DNA of 42,972 bases from a virus. The notes beneath the pieces were generated by a model that made no database searches, was not told the origin of the DNA, and was given only the letters and a program-made list of their open reading frames with translations. Shown piece by piece: positions 11,565 through 21,340 of this stretch. Both the position numbers and the translations under genes were made by a program. The stretch's first letter is position 1. Each line of letters opens with the position of its first letter. The stretch spans positions 1 to 42,972 of IMG/VR virus record IMGVR_UViG_3300009507_000003, one strand, 5' to 3'.

Positions 11565-11606
11565 TCTGGGACACTAGCCTTCACAAAGTGAATGGGAGTT
11601 CCAAAG

Positions 11607-12536
11607 ATGACTAACGACATCGCACGTAAATCAACCGTCACGATAGCTGACTTCGTTGCCACGCACTCACGTATCATTTGGGGCAACGGGCCGCACGAAA
11701 AGAGGTCCCTCGCGAAAATGCAGAGGTTCTGCGCGTTCTCGGATTATGGCAATCAACGGCTTGACTCTTTCCGATCTGAGCATCTCTATGAGTTTATGTC
11801 TCACATTGAAACTGAGCAGACGCCACTAAAGCCCAACGGGTGTAGCCCTGCGACCACGAATCGGTATGTCGCCTGTCTCTCTTCGGTATTTAGACACGCA
11901 GAAGAAATGGGTCTCATTCAACAGGCACCCCGCGTCAAGTTCCGCAAGATATCCAAACATGAGCAACACAAGCGCCGGTTCCTGAGTGATCGTGAGTTGG
12001 ACAAACTGCTCGAGTATCTGGGCAGCTTGGCACAACAATACCAATGGGTCCGAGAATTTGTGGTCATTGGTATTAACACAGGTATGCGCCTCGGTGAAAT
12101 ACGAAGCCTAGACGCTGACAACATCGAGCACGACGAGAATGGTGCTTGGCTGGTCTTGGAGAAAACCAAGAATGGCGATGACCGGCGGGTGCCAGCTAAC
12201 GACGCTGTGCTTGAGGCTCTCGAAAACCTTAGCAATGAGCCGTCGTGTCACTTTGAGAACCATCCGTTCTATTGTGTCATGGCAGCAGCACGTCAGGCAG
12301 TCGCACCAAATGACAAATCGTTTGTCTTTCACAGCCTTCGCCACACTGCGGCTAGTACGATGGCGAACGACCTACAGATCAACACTATATTAATCGCACG
12401 TCTCTTGGGCCACAAATCGCTCAAGACCACTGAGGGTTACGTGCATGTGAAGGGAGACGCGGCGGCAGACGTTGGCGCGGCTATGGGTAGAAGGTTTAGC
12501 AACAATAATAGCAACACAACAACTGGGAGTAAGTAA
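11607..12536 (+). CDS. int: Tyrosine recombinase / integrase
   Basis: A 309-residue site-specific recombinase. The N-terminal core-binding domain spans about residues 10-110 and the catalytic domain has all active-site residues: Arg161 (TGMRLGEI), Lys188 (EKTKNG), His242 and Arg245 (HSLRH), His269 (LLGHKS) and Tyr278 (EGYVH). I chose the ATG at 11607 because GGGAG lies 8 bases before it; the in-frame ATG at 11592 has no such site. It overlies no other gene and is followed 2 nt later by the RNA polymerase gene, so both are probably one transcript. Integrase before RNAP is known from temperate T7-like phages of marine alphaproteobacteria. Confidence 0.93.
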   Translation: MTNDIARKSTVTIADFVATHSRIIWGNGPHEKRSLAKMQRFCAFSDYGNQRLDSFRSEHLYEFMSHIETEQTPLKPNGCSPATTNRYVACLSSVFRHAEEMGLIQQAPRVKFRKISKHEQHKRRFLSDRELDKLLEYLGSLAQQYQWVREFVVIGINTGMRLGEIRSLDADNIEHDENGAWLVLEKTKNGDDRRVPANDAVLEALENLSNEPSCHFENHPFYCVMAAARQAVAPNDKSFVFHSLRHTAASTMANDLQINTILIARLLGHKSLKTTEGYVHVKGDAAADVGAAMGRRFSNNNSNTTTGSK

Positions 12537-12538
12537 CT

Positions 12539-15340
12539 ATGAATGATCTTAACGATTATCAGAGGACTGGTGACACAGCCAAGCAAGGCTGGTCGATGAA
12601 AGTCGAGGCTTGGGATGAGGCAAACATTGTGGCACCGGCGCACGAAGGAAGTGTAGGCCAAGGCAGCGTCGGCGTGGCACCAGTCTCATCGTGGCTCAAC
12701 CCAAACAAAGCCCCACCGGCCTCCCTCTTCGATCAGCAGATTGCACGGGAACAACAGATGGCCGATGAAGGTCACGACAGATACATCAGCAGGCAGGCAT
12801 CACAGGCAGGAGCGAAGTACGACGAAGACGGCAGCATTACAGGCGTCGCAGCGTACAGCAAAGCAAACGAACCCCACCGCATAATTGAAAACGCAGTCGC
12901 TGACGTTGCTCAGGCGATCCGAGACGCCTTGAAGGAAGCGGGCTCAGGCGCAGGCGCTCCACCTTTGTGGGTCAAGATTGTCAAAGAGATCGACAACCCC
13001 GAGACGCTGGCTTTCATAGGACTGTCTACAATGATGGACGCGGTTGGCTCACAGGGCTCACTCACGTCAGGCGTCGATAGCATTGGTTTCCGCATCAGCA
13101 AGGCCTTAGAACACCAAGCTTGGTGGGCAGGCTTCCTCGCCTATGACAAGGTTATGGCACGGCGGGTCGAGGCGCAGGTTACCAAAGCCCATTCGGCGCT
13201 GAGATACCGCCAGAAGGCCATCAGACACATTGCAACTAAAGAGGGCTACAAGCCGACCACGGCGCTGGCCTCACACACTAAGCTCAAGAAGAAGGACAGG
13301 GGCGTCGTAGGAACCTTTGTAGTCAATTGCGTACTCCGTGCCACTGACATCTTCGAGGTGACCAGCGAGTATGTGTCGGCGACGAAGGTCAAAAGGTTTA
13401 TTGATCTGACGCCCGAGGCTCGACAGCTCTTGGAGGACAACGACATGGACGCTCGGTGGATGGCCCCAGTATACCAGCCTATGGTCGTGCCGCCGATCCC
13501 GTGGACGACGTTTACCGATGGTGGCTACCTGACGGACCTTAGTGCAGGCGGTGACATCAACTTGGTACGCGGTGCTACCGGCGCTCAGAAACGCGCTGTG
13601 GAGGCCGACATGGCCGCTGGCGATCCTTCCTACGTGAGAGCCGTCAACGCGCTACAGGCCACGCCTCTGGCGATCAACGACACCGTTGTCGATGCCGTCC
13701 AGTGGTGCTGGGACGAGGCCAAGATGTTCTCTAATTTCCCAGCAGCCGAAGCACCTGCGCGACCTGTGCTACCTGACGATTACGAGGGTCTCAGTGACAA
13801 GGTGAAATCCCAGCACAGGGCAGGCCTTCGCAAGTGGCATCTTAAGCGACGTGAGGTCGTGGCAAACCGGCACTGTATGCAGAGCGACCTAAAGACTGCG
13901 CGTGAGATGCAAGGTTACGATGAGTTCTTCACCCCGTGGAACACTGACTTTAGAGGGCGCATGTATATGCTGTCCACGTTCAACTACCACCGAGCGGACC
14001 ATATCAAAGCAATGTTCCAGTTTTCCCGAGGCAAGGCAATCAAAGATCCGAAGTGGATCAAGGTTCACCTCGCTAACGTCGGTGACTTCGACAAGATCAG
14101 CAAGCAGAGCTTCGAAGACCGCGAGGCTTGGGTCGATGACAACCACGATCAATTGATTGCTTGCGCGTCGGATTTTAAAGCTAGCTTTGGTGACTGGAGC
14201 CGCGCAGATAAGCCTTTCCAGTTCTTGGCCGCAGTCGTGGCTTACAAAGAATACTGCGACCACGGTGCAGGATACGTTTGCTACCTACCTCCAAGCCTCG
14301 ATGGCACCAACAGTGGCACTCAGCACTATAGTGCCGCCACGCTCAATGAGGACGATGCTTTTCTCGTCAACCTCGTCCCAGACGATGCCTGCCAAGACGT
14401 CTATGGGGTCGTAGCCAAGGCCGTTGAGGCTCGGGTGCGCTGCGATCTACAAAGCGACAAGACGCTGCCCTATGCGCTCAAGACAGACAAGGACGGCAAC
14501 GTGGTCGAGCGCGGCTATACCCCGACGCTTGGGGACCTTGCAGCGATGTGGTTGGACTATGGCATCACTCGCAAGGTCTGCAAGCGAAACACAATGACCT
14601 TTGGCTATAGCTCCAATGCCAACGGTATGTACGACCAGCTCATGGAAGATTTCATGGTCCCTCTGGAGCGATCCGTTGCTTACGGTGAGTTATCTAAGCA
14701 CCCGTTCGGGGACGACCATGTGCAACGGGATGCTGCGAGGTACTTAGCGACCATTAACTATGAGACAATCAGAGAGACGCTGTCCTCAGTCTCAGGGGCT
14801 ATGGACTACATCCGCGCACTGTCGGAGGCCCTGAGCAAAGAGAACAAGGTTATGCGCTCGACATCGCCGTCTGGGTTTCCCGTGTTTCAAAGGTACCAAA
14901 AGACCAAGCGTATGAGGGTCAGGGTTTTCTTGTGGGACAGGGAAGCCAAGATCAACAAGCGCTCGCAGATCACGATGGTGCAGGACGTCGTCAACCAGAT
15001 CGACAGCAGGAAGGCATCAAATTCTGCCAGTCCTAACATCATTCACAGTTGGGATGCTGGGCACATGGCGCTTACGATCTGCGCTATGCTGGACGAGGGC
15101 ATCGAGGACTTCTTTATGATCCATGATAGCTTTGCCACACAGGCGGCTGACACAGACACGATGTATCACGTCGTGAGACAGGTGTTCGTCGATATCTACT
15201 CAGGTGACTGCGTCTTTGCTAAACTTGAGGCCGAGGTCCGCGAACAACTCAGCAATCCCGACGCAGCCTTAGCGGCACTGCCTGCCAAAGGAGACTTAGA
15301 CATACAGGGAGTCCTCGATAGTCGCTACTGCTTTAGTTGA
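12539..15340 (+). CDS. T7-like single-subunit DNA-directed RNA polymerase
   Basis: 933 residues, slightly longer than T7 RNAP (883). Conserved motifs are all present: SLDGTNSGTQHYSA with catalytic Asp588; the O-helix ITRKVCKRNTMTFGY with Arg678, Lys682 and Tyr690; and FMIHDSFATQAADTD with catalytic Asp863. GGGAG 10 bases before the ATG supports the start. It transcribes phage genes from phage-specific promoters; the three 25-bp elements in this genome are the likely targets. The gene is 2 nt after int and 67 nt before ssb, with promoter P2 in that gap. Confidence 0.97.
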   Translation: MNDLNDYQRTGDTAKQGWSMKVEAWDEANIVAPAHEGSVGQGSVGVAPVSSWLNPNKAPPASLFDQQIAREQQMADEGHDRYISRQASQAGAKYDEDGSITGVAAYSKANEPHRIIENAVADVAQAIRDALKEAGSGAGAPPLWVKIVKEIDNPETLAFIGLSTMMDAVGSQGSLTSGVDSIGFRISKALEHQAWWAGFLAYDKVMARRVEAQVTKAHSALRYRQKAIRHIATKEGYKPTTALASHTKLKKKDRGVVGTFVVNCVLRATDIFEVTSEYVSATKVKRFIDLTPEARQLLEDNDMDARWMAPVYQPMVVPPIPWTTFTDGGYLTDLSAGGDINLVRGATGAQKRAVEADMAAGDPSYVRAVNALQATPLAINDTVVDAVQWCWDEAKMFSNFPAAEAPARPVLPDDYEGLSDKVKSQHRAGLRKWHLKRREVVANRHCMQSDLKTAREMQGYDEFFTPWNTDFRGRMYMLSTFNYHRADHIKAMFQFSRGKAIKDPKWIKVHLANVGDFDKISKQSFEDREAWVDDNHDQLIACASDFKASFGDWSRADKPFQFLAAVVAYKEYCDHGAGYVCYLPPSLDGTNSGTQHYSAATLNEDDAFLVNLVPDDACQDVYGVVAKAVEARVRCDLQSDKTLPYALKTDKDGNVVERGYTPTLGDLAAMWLDYGITRKVCKRNTMTFGYSSNANGMYDQLMEDFMVPLERSVAYGELSKHPFGDDHVQRDAARYLATINYETIRETLSSVSGAMDYIRALSEALSKENKVMRSTSPSGFPVFQRYQKTKRMRVRVFLWDREAKINKRSQITMVQDVVNQIDSRKASNSASPNIIHSWDAGHMALTICAMLDEGIEDFFMIHDSFATQAADTDTMYHVVRQVFVDIYSGDCVFAKLEAEVREQLSNPDAALAALPAKGDLDIQGVLDSRYCFS

Positions 15341-16450: not shown

Positions 16451-16476
16451 ACTTTGTGTGGTTGGGAGACCGAGCT

Positions 16477-18111
16477 ATGACTATTGAGCAGTTAGAGAGC
16501 ACCAGCGAGTTTGTCGCCCACGTACCCTGCGAGGCGTGTGGTTCTCGCGACAACGCTGGTATCTACACCGATGGTCACACGTACTGCTTTGGCTGTGCCG
16601 AGCACGTCCAAGGAGACGCTGACAGTGGGTCTGTGGTGGCATCTCAGACCAAAGCTTTACTACCCCTGATCGAAGGCGAGTACAGGCCTCTCAGGGCCCG
16701 AGGATTAACCGAGGAAACGTGTCGCAAGTTTGGCTATCAGGTCGGCCTAAACAACCAAGGCAAGACGGTGCAAATCGCAACTTACCGAGATAGCGCAGGT
16801 CGCCCAGTCGCTCAGAAACTGCGTACCAAGGACAAGCAGTTTTCGGTTGTAGGCGCCGGCAAAGCAATGACCTTGTTTGGCAGTCACCTGTGGTCGAAGG
16901 GAAAGAAGATCGTGGTCTGCGAAGGTGAGATCGACGCCATGACCGTGTCGCAAATCCAAGGTCACAAGTGGGCCACGGTATCAATACCCAGCGGCTCACA
17001 GTCGGCGAAGAAATCACTCATGAAGGCGCTCGACTACCTAAGCAATTTCGATGAGATTGTGCTGATGTTTGACGCTGACGAGGCTGGGCAATCAGCGGCC
17101 CTCGACTGTGCAGAAGCTCTGCCTATTGGCAGCACCAAGATTGCCACGATGCCCGAAGGGTTCAAAGACCCAAACGAGTGTATGCTTGGCGGCAAAAGCG
17201 CTGAGATCATCAACGCCATCCACCAAGCAAATGACTTCCGTCCTGATGGCATTGTAAGCGCTAGTGATCTGCGAGATATCGTCGGGCAGGCAGATGCCAA
17301 GGCCGAGATCGAGTACCCATACACTAAGCTCAACGAAGTGCTCATGGGCATCCGCACGTCGTCATTGATTACGATAGCGGCGGGGAGCGGTGTCGGCAAA
17401 AGCACGCTAGTCCGAGAGTTCGCCTACGCGATCCACATGTCAGGCAAAGCTGGCCCAGTGGGCATGATGATGCTTGAGGAAACGACGAAGCGCAGCCTGC
17501 AAGGCCTCGTCGGGCTTCACATGAACAAGAACATCACCGTGGACCCAGACGCTGCGACCCGCGAAGAGATCGAGGCCAGCTTCGATGACTTGGTGAGCGA
17601 GAGACAGCTTTACTTCTTCGACCACTTCGGTGGCTCTGACCTTCAGGTGATCAGCAACCGCATAAGATATATGAACAAGGGGCTGGGCTGCAAGGTGATC
17701 TTCCTCGACCACATCAGCATCCTGATATCGGCAGCTACGGGCGGGGTCACTGACGAGCGCCGGTTGGTCGATCAGGTGATGAACGATCTGAGGGTCCTAG
17801 TGCAGGAGCTAGACATTGCCCTGTTCGTTGTGAGCCACCTGAGACGGCCACAGTCCGAGGCAGGCCATGAGGGTGGGGCTAAGGTCCAACTAAGCCAGCT
17901 ACGTGGCAGTCACGCGATTGCACAGCTTGCTGATGCCTGCATAGGCCTTGAGGTGGACGCCGATGATCCGACGTCTGGCTTGAGGAACTTGGTGGTGCTT
18001 AAGAACAGACACACCGGCCAAACGGGAAACGCCGGTACCCTGCGTTATGACAGAGATACCGGCAGATTGAGTGAAGTCGATGAGGCGTTTGATAGCGACG
18101 TGCCTTTTTAA
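16477..18111 (+). CDS. Bifunctional primase-helicase (gp4-like)
   Basis: 544 residues, similar to T7 gp4A (566). The N-terminal zinc finger has Cys18, Cys21, Cys37 and Cys40. The TOPRIM primase region has VVCEGEIDAMTV and VLMFDADEAGQ. The RecA-like helicase has Walker A GSGVGKST (residues 303-310), Walker B KVIFLDHIS and FVVSHLRRP. It unwinds the fork and makes primers for the phage polymerase. GGGAG 8 bases before the ATG at 16477 decides the start over an upstream GTG at 16456. Unlike in T7, a minus-strand operon separates it from the DNA polymerase gene. Confidence 0.95.
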   Translation: MTIEQLESTSEFVAHVPCEACGSRDNAGIYTDGHTYCFGCAEHVQGDADSGSVVASQTKALLPLIEGEYRPLRARGLTEETCRKFGYQVGLNNQGKTVQIATYRDSAGRPVAQKLRTKDKQFSVVGAGKAMTLFGSHLWSKGKKIVVCEGEIDAMTVSQIQGHKWATVSIPSGSQSAKKSLMKALDYLSNFDEIVLMFDADEAGQSAALDCAEALPIGSTKIATMPEGFKDPNECMLGGKSAEIINAIHQANDFRPDGIVSASDLRDIVGQADAKAEIEYPYTKLNEVLMGIRTSSLITIAAGSGVGKSTLVREFAYAIHMSGKAGPVGMMMLEETTKRSLQGLVGLHMNKNITVDPDAATREEIEASFDDLVSERQLYFFDHFGGSDLQVISNRIRYMNKGLGCKVIFLDHISILISAATGGVTDERRLVDQVMNDLRVLVQELDIALFVVSHLRRPQSEAGHEGGAKVQLSQLRGSHAIAQLADACIGLEVDADDPTSGLRNLVVLKNRHTGQTGNAGTLRYDRDTGRLSEVDEAFDSDVPF

Positions 18112-18113
18112 AA

Positions 18114-18150
18114 CCCAACTAGCAGAAACTTTTCTTAGGGTTGGGCTTTT
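18114..18150. terminator. Terminator between convergent transcription units
   Basis: CCCAAC (18114-18119) pairs with GTTGGG (18140-18145), followed by CTTTT (18146-18150). It sits at the meeting point of the plus-strand primase-helicase and the end of the minus-strand operon. Upstream AAAA on the plus strand gives a short T-run for the minus direction as well. Confidence 0.6.
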
Positions 18151-18159
18151 GACACTTAG

Positions 18160-18372
18160 TTAGGAGCGAGGCCACTCGGGCGGTCTGAAGCCGTAATCTG
18201 TGAGCCACGATAACACGCGACAGGCCACAGGGTTTGGTGGTCTACCGCCCTCGCCTTCCCCGTCGAACTCCCACTTGCGTACCGTCCGTTCTGACGTGTT
18301 TAGGACATGCGCTAACTGACGAACCGTGAGGCCCAGCGACCGCCGAGCCTCCTTGAATTGTGTGGGTGTCAT
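18160..18372 (-). CDS. Small HTH (XRE-type) DNA-binding protein
   Basis: 70 residues with one helix-turn-helix: TPTQFKEARRSLGLTVRQLAHVLN followed by the recognition helix TSERTVRKWEF. The C-terminus (ACRVLSWLTDYGFRPPEWP) resembles small chromosomal HTH proteins of Alphaproteobacteria. It is the last gene of a minus-strand operon opposed to the replication genes and overlaps the upstream gene at ATGA. It could be the lysogeny regulator or an autoregulator of the divergent operator at 19457-19486. It is too small for a lambda-type repressor with its own dimerisation domain. Confidence 0.85.
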   Translation of the reverse strand: MTPTQFKEARRSLGLTVRQLAHVLNTSERTVRKWEFDGEGEGGRPPNPVACRVLSWLTDYGFRPPEWPRS

Positions 18373-18623
18373 TGGCCTGTCAACCTCAGTGCTTCATCGT
18401 CAGCCTCATAAAAGCCGTCTTCAAGTTCTCTGCGAATAAAGCTGACAATGCCTCTAATGTGATCATCACGCCAGCACACAACAGTCGCTTGCGTTGTTGA
18501 CCAGCACATTTTAGGCGGGGCATCGAAGGTAATATCCCAGCCGCAAAGGCTATCGTGCGAAGCGTCAACCTCGACATTATGTGGGGCGCATATGGCCCGT
18601 AGCTTTTCGATGGTCTTGTTCAT
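18369..18623 (-). CDS. Small protein of minus-strand operon, unknown function (gene 4)
   Basis: 84 residues from the ATG at 18623, preceded by AGAGAAG; an upstream extension of the frame to 18692 has no support and overlaps the previous gene. Product features: MNKTIEKLRAICAPHNVEV, four Trp residues and an acidic helix (FIRRELEDGFYEADDEALRL). Both ends are ATGA overlaps, so it is translated together with its neighbours. No family recognised. Confidence 0.72.
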   Translation of the reverse strand: MNKTIEKLRAICAPHNVEVDASHDSLCGWDITFDAPPKMCWSTTQATVVCWRDDHIRGIVSFIRRELEDGFYEADDEALRLTGQ

Positions 18624-18808
18624 TGTGCGCTTCTCTTTGCAATGATCTTGACGCCACGAAAGTACCGGCGGCTGTCGTAGGGATGGTTCCAAGATAACTG
18701 GTCCGTCAGAAACTCCTTGATCTCATGTTTGGTCGGGAGGCCTTGAACTTCACCATCGTCATCCTCGTCGGCGACGTCGATGGTGATTTGGAAGGTGTAC
18801 TTGGTCAT
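18620..18808 (-). CDS. Small protein of minus-strand operon, unknown function (gene 3)
   Basis: 62 residues with AAAGGA upstream. Predicted mixed alpha/beta: a beta strand (YTFQITIDVADED), an acidic turn, a helix (KHEIKEFLTDQL) and a basic end (FRGVKIIAKRSAQ). It overlaps both neighbours at ATGA, the upstream context AGCACAATGA being repeated at the next junction. No function assigned. Confidence 0.72.
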   Translation of the reverse strand: MTKYTFQITIDVADEDDDGEVQGLPTKHEIKEFLTDQLSWNHPYDSRRYFRGVKIIAKRSAQ

Positions 18809-19002
18809 TGTGCTAATCCTTTCTGGTAAGCTTTGATCAGGGCGTCACGGCCCTTAAGTTCGGCGACAAGAAACTTGATCCGAAGAGCGGCGTGACCCAA
18901 GTCTTCGGCGGTCTGCTCGTAGCCGTCAGCTTCAAAGTCGTCGGCCAGAGTGTCGAGGTAATCAGCGTACTCTAGGTCGCTGGTTTGGGAAGTAGGTGTC
19001 AT
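18805..19002 (-). CDS. Small acidic helical protein of minus-strand operon (gene 2)
   Basis: 65 residues, mostly helical and acidic (YADYLDTLADDFEADGYEQ then HAALRIKFLVAELKGRDALI). TTGGAGA lies before the ATG. Both ends are ATGA overlaps. Its size and charge are those of small phage regulatory or anti-host proteins, but I recognise no family. Confidence 0.72.
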   Translation of the reverse strand: MTPTSQTSDLEYADYLDTLADDFEADGYEQTAEDLGHAALRIKFLVAELKGRDALIKAYQKGLAQ

Positions 19003-19427
19003 TGTGCTGTCTCCAAATCTTTAGCTAAGTAACTCGGTAGGTCTGCATCTGTGTAAACTTGGTTTCCAAACTGACCACCGAAGCTAAAATTAGAATTGAC
19101 TTTCTTTGCTTTGTTTTGAGCTTTACGCTTTGTTTCTGCCTCTACAATCAGGGCGATGTAGGACGTGTAGCGGGGGTAGTCTCCATATCCAAACTCGGCA
19201 GTATTTGCGTTCTCGCGCTTCTCGCCAATAATGTAATAGGTTTTCATAATATGCGGCTCTGCAACTTTCTTTGGCGCTTTAGTTTTAACTGCTGTCCACT
19301 CGTTACCTTGGCCCCGCACTTGGTTGCCCCATTCTTTAGCGGCTTGATAGACAGCGCCACGCTGGGTGCCTGCTTGGAATGTTCCACTTAGCTCAGTGGC
19401 TAGGTGTGTCACTTTGAAATATGCCAT
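18999..19427 (-). CDS. First gene of minus-strand operon, unknown function
   Basis: 142 residues, preceded by TGGAGA on the minus strand and by the promoter at 19468-19496. Composition is basic and aromatic, with two parts: an N-terminal region (MAYFKVTHLATELSGTFQAG, AAKEWGNQVRG) and a C-terminal region containing KRKAQNKAKK and FSFGGQFGNQVYTD. No membrane segment. Base composition is slightly more AT-rich than the neighbouring replication genes. I cannot assign a function; as leader of a counter-transcribed operon in a temperate phage it could be expressed in the prophage. Confidence 0.75.
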   Translation of the reverse strand: MAYFKVTHLATELSGTFQAGTQRGAVYQAAKEWGNQVRGQGNEWTAVKTKAPKKVAEPHIMKTYYIIGEKRENANTAEFGYGDYPRYTSYIALIVEAETKRKAQNKAKKVNSNFSFGGQFGNQVYTDADLPSYLAKDLETAQ

Positions 19428-19456
19428 CGTCGTTCTCCATGTGTGGACTTGATTGC

Positions 19457-19496
19457 CCTATGCACTACACATAGGCCCTCTGGGCCGACATTGCAA
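19457..19496 (-). promoter_or_regulatory. Divergent promoter/operator region for minus-strand operon
   Basis: Read on the minus strand, TTGCAA (19491-19496), a 17-bp spacer and TATGTG (19468-19473) form a plausible host promoter for the operon starting at 19427. Two inverted repeats overlap it. CCTATG-N7-CATAGG (19457-19475) covers the -10 and start. GGCCC-TCT-GGGCC (19474-19486) fills the spacer. Such palindromes are typical repressor sites; the HTH protein encoded in the same operon is the natural candidate. Confidence 0.55.
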
Positions 19497-19543: not shown

Positions 19544-21340
19544 ATGAGCACTTATGCTTCGCGATCCAAGAGGTTTGCCTTCGACCTAGAGAGCAACGGC
19601 CTCCTCGACACCATCAACCGCATCCACTGCCTAGTCCTGAGCGACCTAGATACCGGCGTTGTCGAGAGCTTCGATAGCCGCGATCCAATGCGTCTACTCA
19701 AAGGCCTAAGCTACCTCCAAGACGCCGAAGAGATCGTCGGTCATAACATCATTGGGTACGACATCCCTGCCATCAAGATCGTGCATCCGACGTGGACGCC
19801 GCGAGGCAAAGTCACCGACACGCTGGTGCTCTCGCGCCTGATCCACGCCGACCTTATGGGTGAGGATGCTGTGGCACAACGCGGCAGCGAAGACTTCCCT
19901 AAGAGGCTCTGGGGCTCTCACAGCCTCAAAGCGTGGGGAATGCGGATCGGCAATTTCAAAGGTGACTACGACGGTGGCTGGGAGAAGTTCTCGGAAGAGA
20001 TGCTGTCGTACTGCGTCCAAGACGTCAACGTGACCGTAGAGCTGTATCATAGGCTGATGAGTGCCAATGCCTCGCCGGTCGCGGTGGACTTGGAGCATGA
20101 GTTGGCTGAGATCTGCTTTCGCATTGGTAACAACGGTTGGACCTTTGATCTGGGCAAGGCGGCGACTTTATATGCCAAGCTGGCAGGTAAGCGGCAAGAA
20201 CTGACGAAGTCTTTAGATACGTTGTTCCCACCTTGGGAGGTCGCCGAGACTTTCATACCAGCCCGAAATAACAAGACACGTGGCTACATCAAAGACGAGC
20301 CCTTCGAGAAAACAAAGATGGTCGAGTTCAACCCAAGCTCCCGACGCCACATAGAGAAGTGCCTTCGAGACAAATACGACTGGAAGCCCGCCAAGTTCAG
20401 TGGCGATGGTCACGCTGTCATAGACGACAAGATCTTGAGTGCCCTGACCGAGTATCCAGAGGCGCAAAAGCTGGCTGAAATGTTCATGTTGCAAAAGCGC
20501 ATAGGACAACTGGCCGAGGGCAAGCAGGCGTGGATGAAGCGCGTCGATAGCGATGGTCGCATCAGACATTCGATAGTCTCGGGAGGCACAATCTCTGGCC
20601 GCGCAAGCCACCGGTCGCCAAACCTTGCACAGGTGCCTGCCGCCCGTCTCCAGTACGGCCAAGAGTGCCGAGAGCTATTCACGGTGCCAGATGGCTGGCG
20701 GCTGCTAGGCAGCGATTTATCGGGGCTCGAATTGCGCTGTCTTGCCCACTACATTAACGATCCAGAGTTCACTTCTCACATCCTAGATGGCGACATCCAC
20801 ACGTACAATGCGAAGGCTTTCGGGGTAGATCGCCCAACGGCAAAATCAGTGGTCTACTCATTAATGTACGGTGGAGGCGATGCCCTCGTTGGTGCGCTTG
20901 CTGGCGGCAATGCCAAGCTCGGCAAGAAGCTCAAGGCCAACTATGGTCGAGAGGTGCCAGCGTTTGCTACGCTCCAGAAAGGCATCAGCAGGGCGTTCAA
21001 GAGACGTGGCTATCTGAAAGGCCTAGACCGGCGAAAGCTCATCATACGCGGTGGATCAGAGCACAAGTGCCTGTCCCAGCTACTCCAGTCAGCGGGGGCC
21101 ATCCTCTGCAAGAAGTGGGTCGCTCTGATCGACCACGAACTCCGAGACATCAGCGACCAAGCTTACATGGTCGGCTGGATACACGACGAGGTTCAAATCG
21201 CATGTAAAACACAGGAGGTCGCTGATCATGTCGGTGATATCACTCGAAGAGTGGCGCAAGAAGCAGGCGCTGCTTTCCAAACAAACATCCCCATCGAATC
21301 CGATTTTAGCGTTGGAAGAACTTGGGCTCACACCCACTGA
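19544..21340 (+). CDS. T7-like family A DNA polymerase
   Basis: 598 residues, shorter than T7 gp5 (704) but colinear. The 3'-5' exonuclease has Asp14/Glu16 (AFDLESNGL), HNIIGYDIPAIK, DTLVLSRLIHADL and YCVQDVNVT. The polymerase has NPSSRRHIEK, QKRIGQLAEGKQAW, ISGRASHRSPNLAQVPA, motif A GSDLSGLELRCLAHY with Asp391, motif B AKSVVYSLMYGGGD and motif C IHDEVQ with Asp548. GGGAG lies 10 bases before the ATG. The shortening suggests loss or reduction of insertions such as the thioredoxin-binding loop; processivity may work differently. Confidence 0.96.
   Translation: MSTYASRSKRFAFDLESNGLLDTINRIHCLVLSDLDTGVVESFDSRDPMRLLKGLSYLQDAEEIVGHNIIGYDIPAIKIVHPTWTPRGKVTDTLVLSRLIHADLMGEDAVAQRGSEDFPKRLWGSHSLKAWGMRIGNFKGDYDGGWEKFSEEMLSYCVQDVNVTVELYHRLMSANASPVAVDLEHELAEICFRIGNNGWTFDLGKAATLYAKLAGKRQELTKSLDTLFPPWEVAETFIPARNNKTRGYIKDEPFEKTKMVEFNPSSRRHIEKCLRDKYDWKPAKFSGDGHAVIDDKILSALTEYPEAQKLAEMFMLQKRIGQLAEGKQAWMKRVDSDGRIRHSIVSGGTISGRASHRSPNLAQVPAARLQYGQECRELFTVPDGWRLLGSDLSGLELRCLAHYINDPEFTSHILDGDIHTYNAKAFGVDRPTAKSVVYSLMYGGGDALVGALAGGNAKLGKKLKANYGREVPAFATLQKGISRAFKRRGYLKGLDRRKLIIRGGSEHKCLSQLLQSAGAILCKKWVALIDHELRDISDQAYMVGWIHDEVQIACKTQEVADHVGDITRRVAQEAGAAFQTNIPIESDFSVGRTWAHTH

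Follow-up and report, generated by a model that had tools for sequence, protein, structure and literature searches.

A swappable, counter-transcribed small-gene cassette, probably of the acr-aca type, at a variable helicase–polymerase site of a T7-like phage

We found that five small genes, g1–g5, in a 42,972-base stretch of DNA (IMG/VR virus record IMGVR_UViG_3300009507_000003; hereafter, the window) probably constitute an acr-aca-type accessory cassette that is mobile, regulates itself, is directed against host defence and is located at a variable helicase–polymerase site. That this unit is an autoregulated, swappable cassette appears very likely, and we lean toward the view that its products counter host defence. 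A tentative further proposal, with the chances somewhat against it, is that at least one of g1–g4 is an anti-CRISPR. The window contains a T7-like replication region with a tyrosine integrase (11592–12536), a T7-type single-subunit RNA polymerase (12539–15340), an ssDNA-binding protein, an endonuclease, a primase-helicase (16456–18111) and a family-A DNA polymerase (19544–21340). All five genes are on the minus strand and are lodged between the last two genes, which are on the plus strand; including its promoter, the unit extends to ~19530.

A sequence-only reading of this DNA had described five minus-strand genes joined by four exact ATGA overlaps between primase-helicase and polymerase. The ORFs and junctions agreed with it, ATGA being present at 4/4 junctions of g1–g5, and the integrase, the HTH nature of the last gene (g5 matches Pfam HTH_3) and two promoter palindromes that it had noted were found as well. 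The string GCACAATGA was present at 3 of the 4 window junctions and at 6 of 20 distinct junctions at gene borders of sibling cassettes. This recurrence accounts for the exact ATGA overlaps and suggests that genes may have been exchanged via short homology. When compared with diverged homologues, dN was well under dS (dN/dS of 0.131/1.288 for g1, 0.115/0.621 for g3 and 0.164/1.042 for g5), and the ratio was <0.3 for each of g1–g5 that had a sufficiently diverged homologue, which indicates that g1–g5 encode real proteins under purifying selection and are not chance ORFs. Between the helicase gene and g5 (18112–18159), a hairpin CCCAAC...GTTGGG with a T run could be read from the sequence. It is present in relatives with an empty site as well, and is likely the terminator at the convergent end. 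When 12 kb spanning the unit were compared with GenBank phages at the nucleotide level, no match was obtained, and an Rfam search around the unit gave nothing above threshold.

The same reading had placed four of the proteins outside any known family. This was true of three, encoded by g2 (18805–19002, minus strand; 65 aa, acidic, pI 4.3), g3 (18620–18808, minus; 62 aa) and g4 (18369–18623, minus, with the ATG at 18623; 84 aa, acidic). It was not true of g1 (18999–19427, minus; 142 aa, basic), as the C-terminal half of its product is PHROG 25600 (function unknown; E 5e-20). Two beta-beta-alpha-beta units were predicted for g1 (pLDDT 77), and a search of the predicted structure against PDB revealed no fold match. 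The g1 C-terminal domain (KTYYIIG..NTAEFGYGDYP..TKRKAQNKAKK) was also widespread on its own in marine phages, including Lau218; g1 is a fusion of the PHROG 25600 domain with an additional N-terminal unit. A copy of g1 that is 98–99% identical occurs on the plus strand in L082/L083, directly followed by a different HTH gene (40%). Homologues of g2 (88–98%) were found in cassettes L100–L103, those of g3 in L106 and L123, where gene orders differ, and those of g4 in L144, immediately before the HTH gene, as well as in L123, where g3 comes next (g4-g3, versus g3-g4 in the window). Searches of g1–g4 against Pfam, PHROGs, NCBIfam and PDB showed no resemblance to a known anti-defence protein, a search for Acr homologues found none, and defence and toxin models gave no match.

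Comparison with relatives revealed how variable this site is. In the near relatives L003, L004 and L006 (polymerase 81–91% identical), the helicase–polymerase gap was 68–70 bp and contained no cassette. Two of these carry the integrase (81% in L004 and 82% in L006), and no g5-family HTH was found throughout the L006 record (34.6 kb). Different minus-strand cassettes occupied the same site in L002 (80 aa, then HTH 97%), L005 (61 and 63 aa, HTH 74%), L100–L103 (for example, 209 aa, g2, 110 aa and HTH 99% in L101; 121 aa, g2, 110 aa and HTH in L102), L106 (77 and 73 aa, g3, 62 aa and HTH) and L108, and L023 retained only an HTH fragment. Also, the HTH gene and promoter were found in other backbones: beside terminase in L105 (HTH 94%), near integrase in L109 and in siphophage L144. 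Among 51 HTH loci, 91 upstream proteins with a median of 81 aa fell into 67 families, and the position directly before the HTH gene was taken by 32 different families in 42 loci. In this set, the HTH gene and its promoter appear as the constant part and the small upstream genes as the exchanged part. As with phage morons, the unit has its own promoter and is inserted between core genes, being present in some relatives and absent from others.

Several further features of these loci were observed. L002 has an extra 285-aa plus-strand gene at the helicase–polymerase site (L002:1884–2741), PAPS-reductase/adenine-nucleotide hydrolase-like by eye, which makes this site a wider hotspot. The commonest cassette gene belonged to a recurrent acidic family (MNISEIND... 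/ ...QAGYGVFAYIEITAAMVQFE; L105:4591–5004), which also occurred in L108, L109, L110, L111, L123, L125 and L145, showed N-terminal domain swaps and matched no known family. Temperate Paracoccus phage Pkon1 has a homologous HTH mini-operon that is flanked by holin and amidase and distant from its annotated CI/Cro pair. In Pkon1 (beside holin) and in one bacterial genome, the HTH gene is preceded by a gene for a 62-aa protein (loci L242:1534–1934 and L235:3316–3713) that, judged by eye, likely spans the membrane and could serve exclusion or lysis control.

The last gene, g5 (18160–18372, minus), encodes a single Xre-type HTH domain of 70 aa (PHROG 14076/7950), a common type of small HTH, and is probably an Aca-like autorepressor. 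Its minus-strand promoter has a -35-like TTGCAA (19491–19496, read from the sequence) 17 bp before a -10-like TATGTG, the latter a poor fit to consensus (TATATT in relatives). The spacer between them holds the putative operator O1, GGCCCAGAGGGCC (19474–19486, minus), whose dyad was retained via compensatory changes in most relatives. Another palindrome, CCTATG-7-CATAGG (19457–19475, minus), overlaps the -10/start region; it was not favoured as an operator, as its dyad was not consistently conserved among relatives. The third base pair of O1 was C/G, A/T or G/C in relatives and tracked the recognition helix of the HTH. The window-type helix SERTVRKWE was found with half-site GGCCC in 4/4 cases, NERSVRRWE with GGACC in 3/3, NSDPRTVRRWE with GGGCC in 5/5 (omitting L122, where the site had been taken in the wrong register), and APQTIRKWE with GCGCC (GCGCC/GGCGC) in 2/2, namely Pkon1 and chromosome L242. 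In these loci the HTH is encoded some 200–2,000 bp downstream of its matching half-site, beyond unrelated genes. The mutual information between O1 and helix was reached by 0 of 20,000 shuffles, which ignore shared descent, and in a direct table restricted to unique helices, the association of helix position 9 with operator base 3 fell short of significance (p 0.09). We regard the class-wise match of helix and half-site as stronger evidence than the per-position table, and it suggests that the HTH very probably binds O1. Every Aca family's promoter has an inverted repeat within the core promoter (PMC9410906), as O1 is placed here between TTGCAA and TATGTG. Taken together, helix–operator tracking and the Aca promoters argue for autorepression of the operon by its HTH. 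Two HTH genes of the g5 family were close together, in tandem or neighbouring cassettes, in L122, L258 (DSS3P1_21/22) and G017 contig C166; a plasmid search with the HTH gave no match.

Upstream of g1 is a 5' leader, GGGCAATCAAGTCCACACATGGAGAACGACG (19428–19458, minus), with a possible short hairpin (19445–19458) and a Shine-Dalgarno sequence. It contains GGGCAATCAAGTCC, a variant of a 14-nt element, GGGCAATGA(A/C)GCCC, that is followed by 3–14 nt, a Shine-Dalgarno sequence and ATG. The element occurs before the first gene and often recurs ahead of internal genes lacking a separate promoter, with three copies in L106, and is present in Pkon1 too. We found 42 copies in 71 HTH loci (365 kb), all 42 upstream of the HTH gene and in sense, and 0 copies in 780 kb of control phage polymerase loci. 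As a general host feature it was rejected, since, among 397 genomes from the family to which a Rhodobacteraceae MAG belongs, the pattern was present in 12, and several of these matches had no obvious gene after them. Leaders with GGGCAATGACGCCC were repeated before successive genes at L106:2827, 3123 and 3410 and at L132:2299, 3626 and 4051 (L132 is a Rhodobacteraceae MAG contig), and the internal copies often had a GGGGCTTCGGCCCC hairpin ahead. As RNA, the element could fold into a hairpin of four pairs closing a six-base loop. The predicted stability was modest for leaders of sibling cassettes (z -2.2 to -3.2) and did not reach significance for the window leader, which has a G-U pair (z -0.25), so any role of the leader as RNA is a conjecture. 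Aca2 is reported to bind an RNA operator. A speculative and rather improbable extension is that GGGCAATGA(A/C)GCCC serves as an RNA operator to which the HTH protein itself binds. Because the leader travels before individual genes, a newly gained anti-defence gene would in that case come at once under the resident regulator, and cassettes would be plug-in arrays whose translational switch is portable.

Two links connect the HTH family with anti-CRISPRs, an operon match and a cassette gene. AcrIC9 is an experimentally proven type I-C inhibitor of Rhodobacter phage RcapNL, whose operon encodes an HTH that has been described as distantly homologous to Aca3 (PMC7391736). Our HTH profile matched this protein end to end (36 bits), and its best PDB matches were Aca3 (9vt3, 1.6e-5), Aca10 (7xi5, 1.8e-4) and Aca2 (7ezy, 8e-4). 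Besides, cassette L195 combines a g5-family HTH, promoter and leader with a protein having an AcrIC9-like C-terminal part (37% over 63 aa). The best PDB match of this domain was AcrIC9 at a weak E 4e-4, and none of 300 shuffled queries gave a match at E<=0.01. An HTH of Ruegeria phage DSS3-P1 was likewise matched end to end, with 58 bits; five Acrs were predicted in this phage, of which four share a directon with an HTH gene (PMC7391736), and this directon is likely the matched one. DSS3-P1 was also considered as a strictly lytic counter-example and dropped, as an integrase is annotated there.

Based on these data, we infer early expression and anti-defence activity of g1–g4. Upon phage entry, host RNA polymerase would transcribe g1–g4 from the sigma70-like promoter, independently of the phage RNA polymerase and opposite to it. 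The resulting burst of small proteins may counter CRISPR-Cas or another host defence. As the 70-aa HTH accumulates, it would bind the palindrome in the -35/-10 spacer and switch the operon off in the manner of Aca proteins. Swapping of upstream genes between phages would leave each phage with a different set.

A broader explanation is a general moron-type cassette, whose autorepressed small genes would commandeer or adjust the physiology of the host (takeover proteins, superinfection exclusion or lysis timing) and not be specifically anti-defence. Its architecture would be identical, and it is consistent with the missing functional match of g1–g4, with the small, predicted membrane protein that Pkon1 encodes beside its holin and ahead of the HTH, and with the mixed contents of the cassettes, some of whose genes resemble ordinary phage accessory genes (VRR-NUC, methyltransferase-like and LPD29). 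We consider it unlikely in view of the HTH kinship to the AcrIC9 operon and to Aca3, Aca10 and Aca2, and of the AcrIC9-like gene in L195. In addition, anti-defence loci typically show fast turnover of tiny genes under a single switch (PMC11065993).

The sequence-only reading itself had favoured a lysogeny-maintenance or prophage-expressed (moron or immunity) unit, with g5 as the phage repressor. Its moron part stands, as the unit is discrete, self-promoted, counter-transcribed and accessory. Lysogeny maintenance or immunity would fit the unit's own promoter and its counter-transcription too, along with the integrase, the HTH and the promoter palindromes, and is nevertheless very improbable. 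The operon was not constant in related phages: integrase-bearing L004 and L006 have the empty site, others have different cassettes, and the genes upstream of the HTH are freely exchanged. Moreover, g5 is a single domain encoded last in the operon, unlike a two-domain CI-type repressor divergent from cro, and its operator is specific to its own promoter. The Pkon1 homologue coexists with CI/Cro elsewhere in that phage, and neither this pair nor the RcapNL repressor was among the HTH-profile matches listed. Association of the HTH with the AcrIC9 operon likewise points to anti-defence rather than to lysogeny. Yet another type of unit, a type II toxin-antitoxin module in which g4 would be the toxin and g5 an antitoxin regulating its own operon, would explain the HigBA-like gene order and the fold comparison of g5, in which the HigA2 antitoxin was the top match, as close as Aca1. 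We rejected it as extremely improbable because the HTH has no constant partner next to it, the preceding gene differing in nearly every locus, and no window gene matches a toxin family.

The HTH, operator and 14-nt leader mark a large pool of tiny, exchangeable and nearly uncharacterised genes carried by alphaproteobacterial (largely marine) phages with T7-like and siphophage backbones. This pool is linked by homology to a proven anti-CRISPR operon and offers a simple sequence handle for discovery of anti-defence genes where few are known. It also raises the question of whether one HTH controls each swapped gene via the leader at the RNA level.

Among known systems, HigBA-type toxin-antitoxins share with the window an HTH encoded last and, probably, autoregulation through an operator dyad, but have the constant toxin partner that the window family does not have. 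In archaeal viruses, anti-defence genes with Aca8 (PMC11065993) are similar in that many small genes, unrelated to each other, are marked by a single conserved regulatory sequence; the window differs in having a bacterial sigma70-type promoter and operons rather than single genes. The AcrIC9 operon of RcapNL (PMC7391736, PMC10478522) is likewise in a counter-transcribed accessory position, and its small acidic gene precedes an HTH gene from the extended family of g5, whose product aligns with that of g5 end to end, including the C-terminal ..WPD. By eye, its promoter is laid out in the same way, with palindrome GTGCG-5-CGCAC after -35 TTGACT and then a hairpin GAGGC-GATGAT-GCCTC ahead of the ribosome site. 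However, g1–g4 include no AcrIC9 homologue, four genes precede the HTH in the window, and the operator and leader sequences differ. With acr-aca operons of Aca1–Aca10 (PMC9410906), the window shares small genes followed by a small HTH in one operon, a core-promoter inverted repeat and a constant regulator with variable partners; g5 is likened to Aca by its profile matches and assigned to no numbered Aca family. Unlike these operons, sibling cassettes repeat the leader at internal genes, and the window unit sits at a T7-like helicase–polymerase site. The unit is best described as a variant of the acr-aca kind, a counter-transcribed cassette that is swappable, very likely regulates itself and has a repeated leader, and its role is most likely anti-defence.
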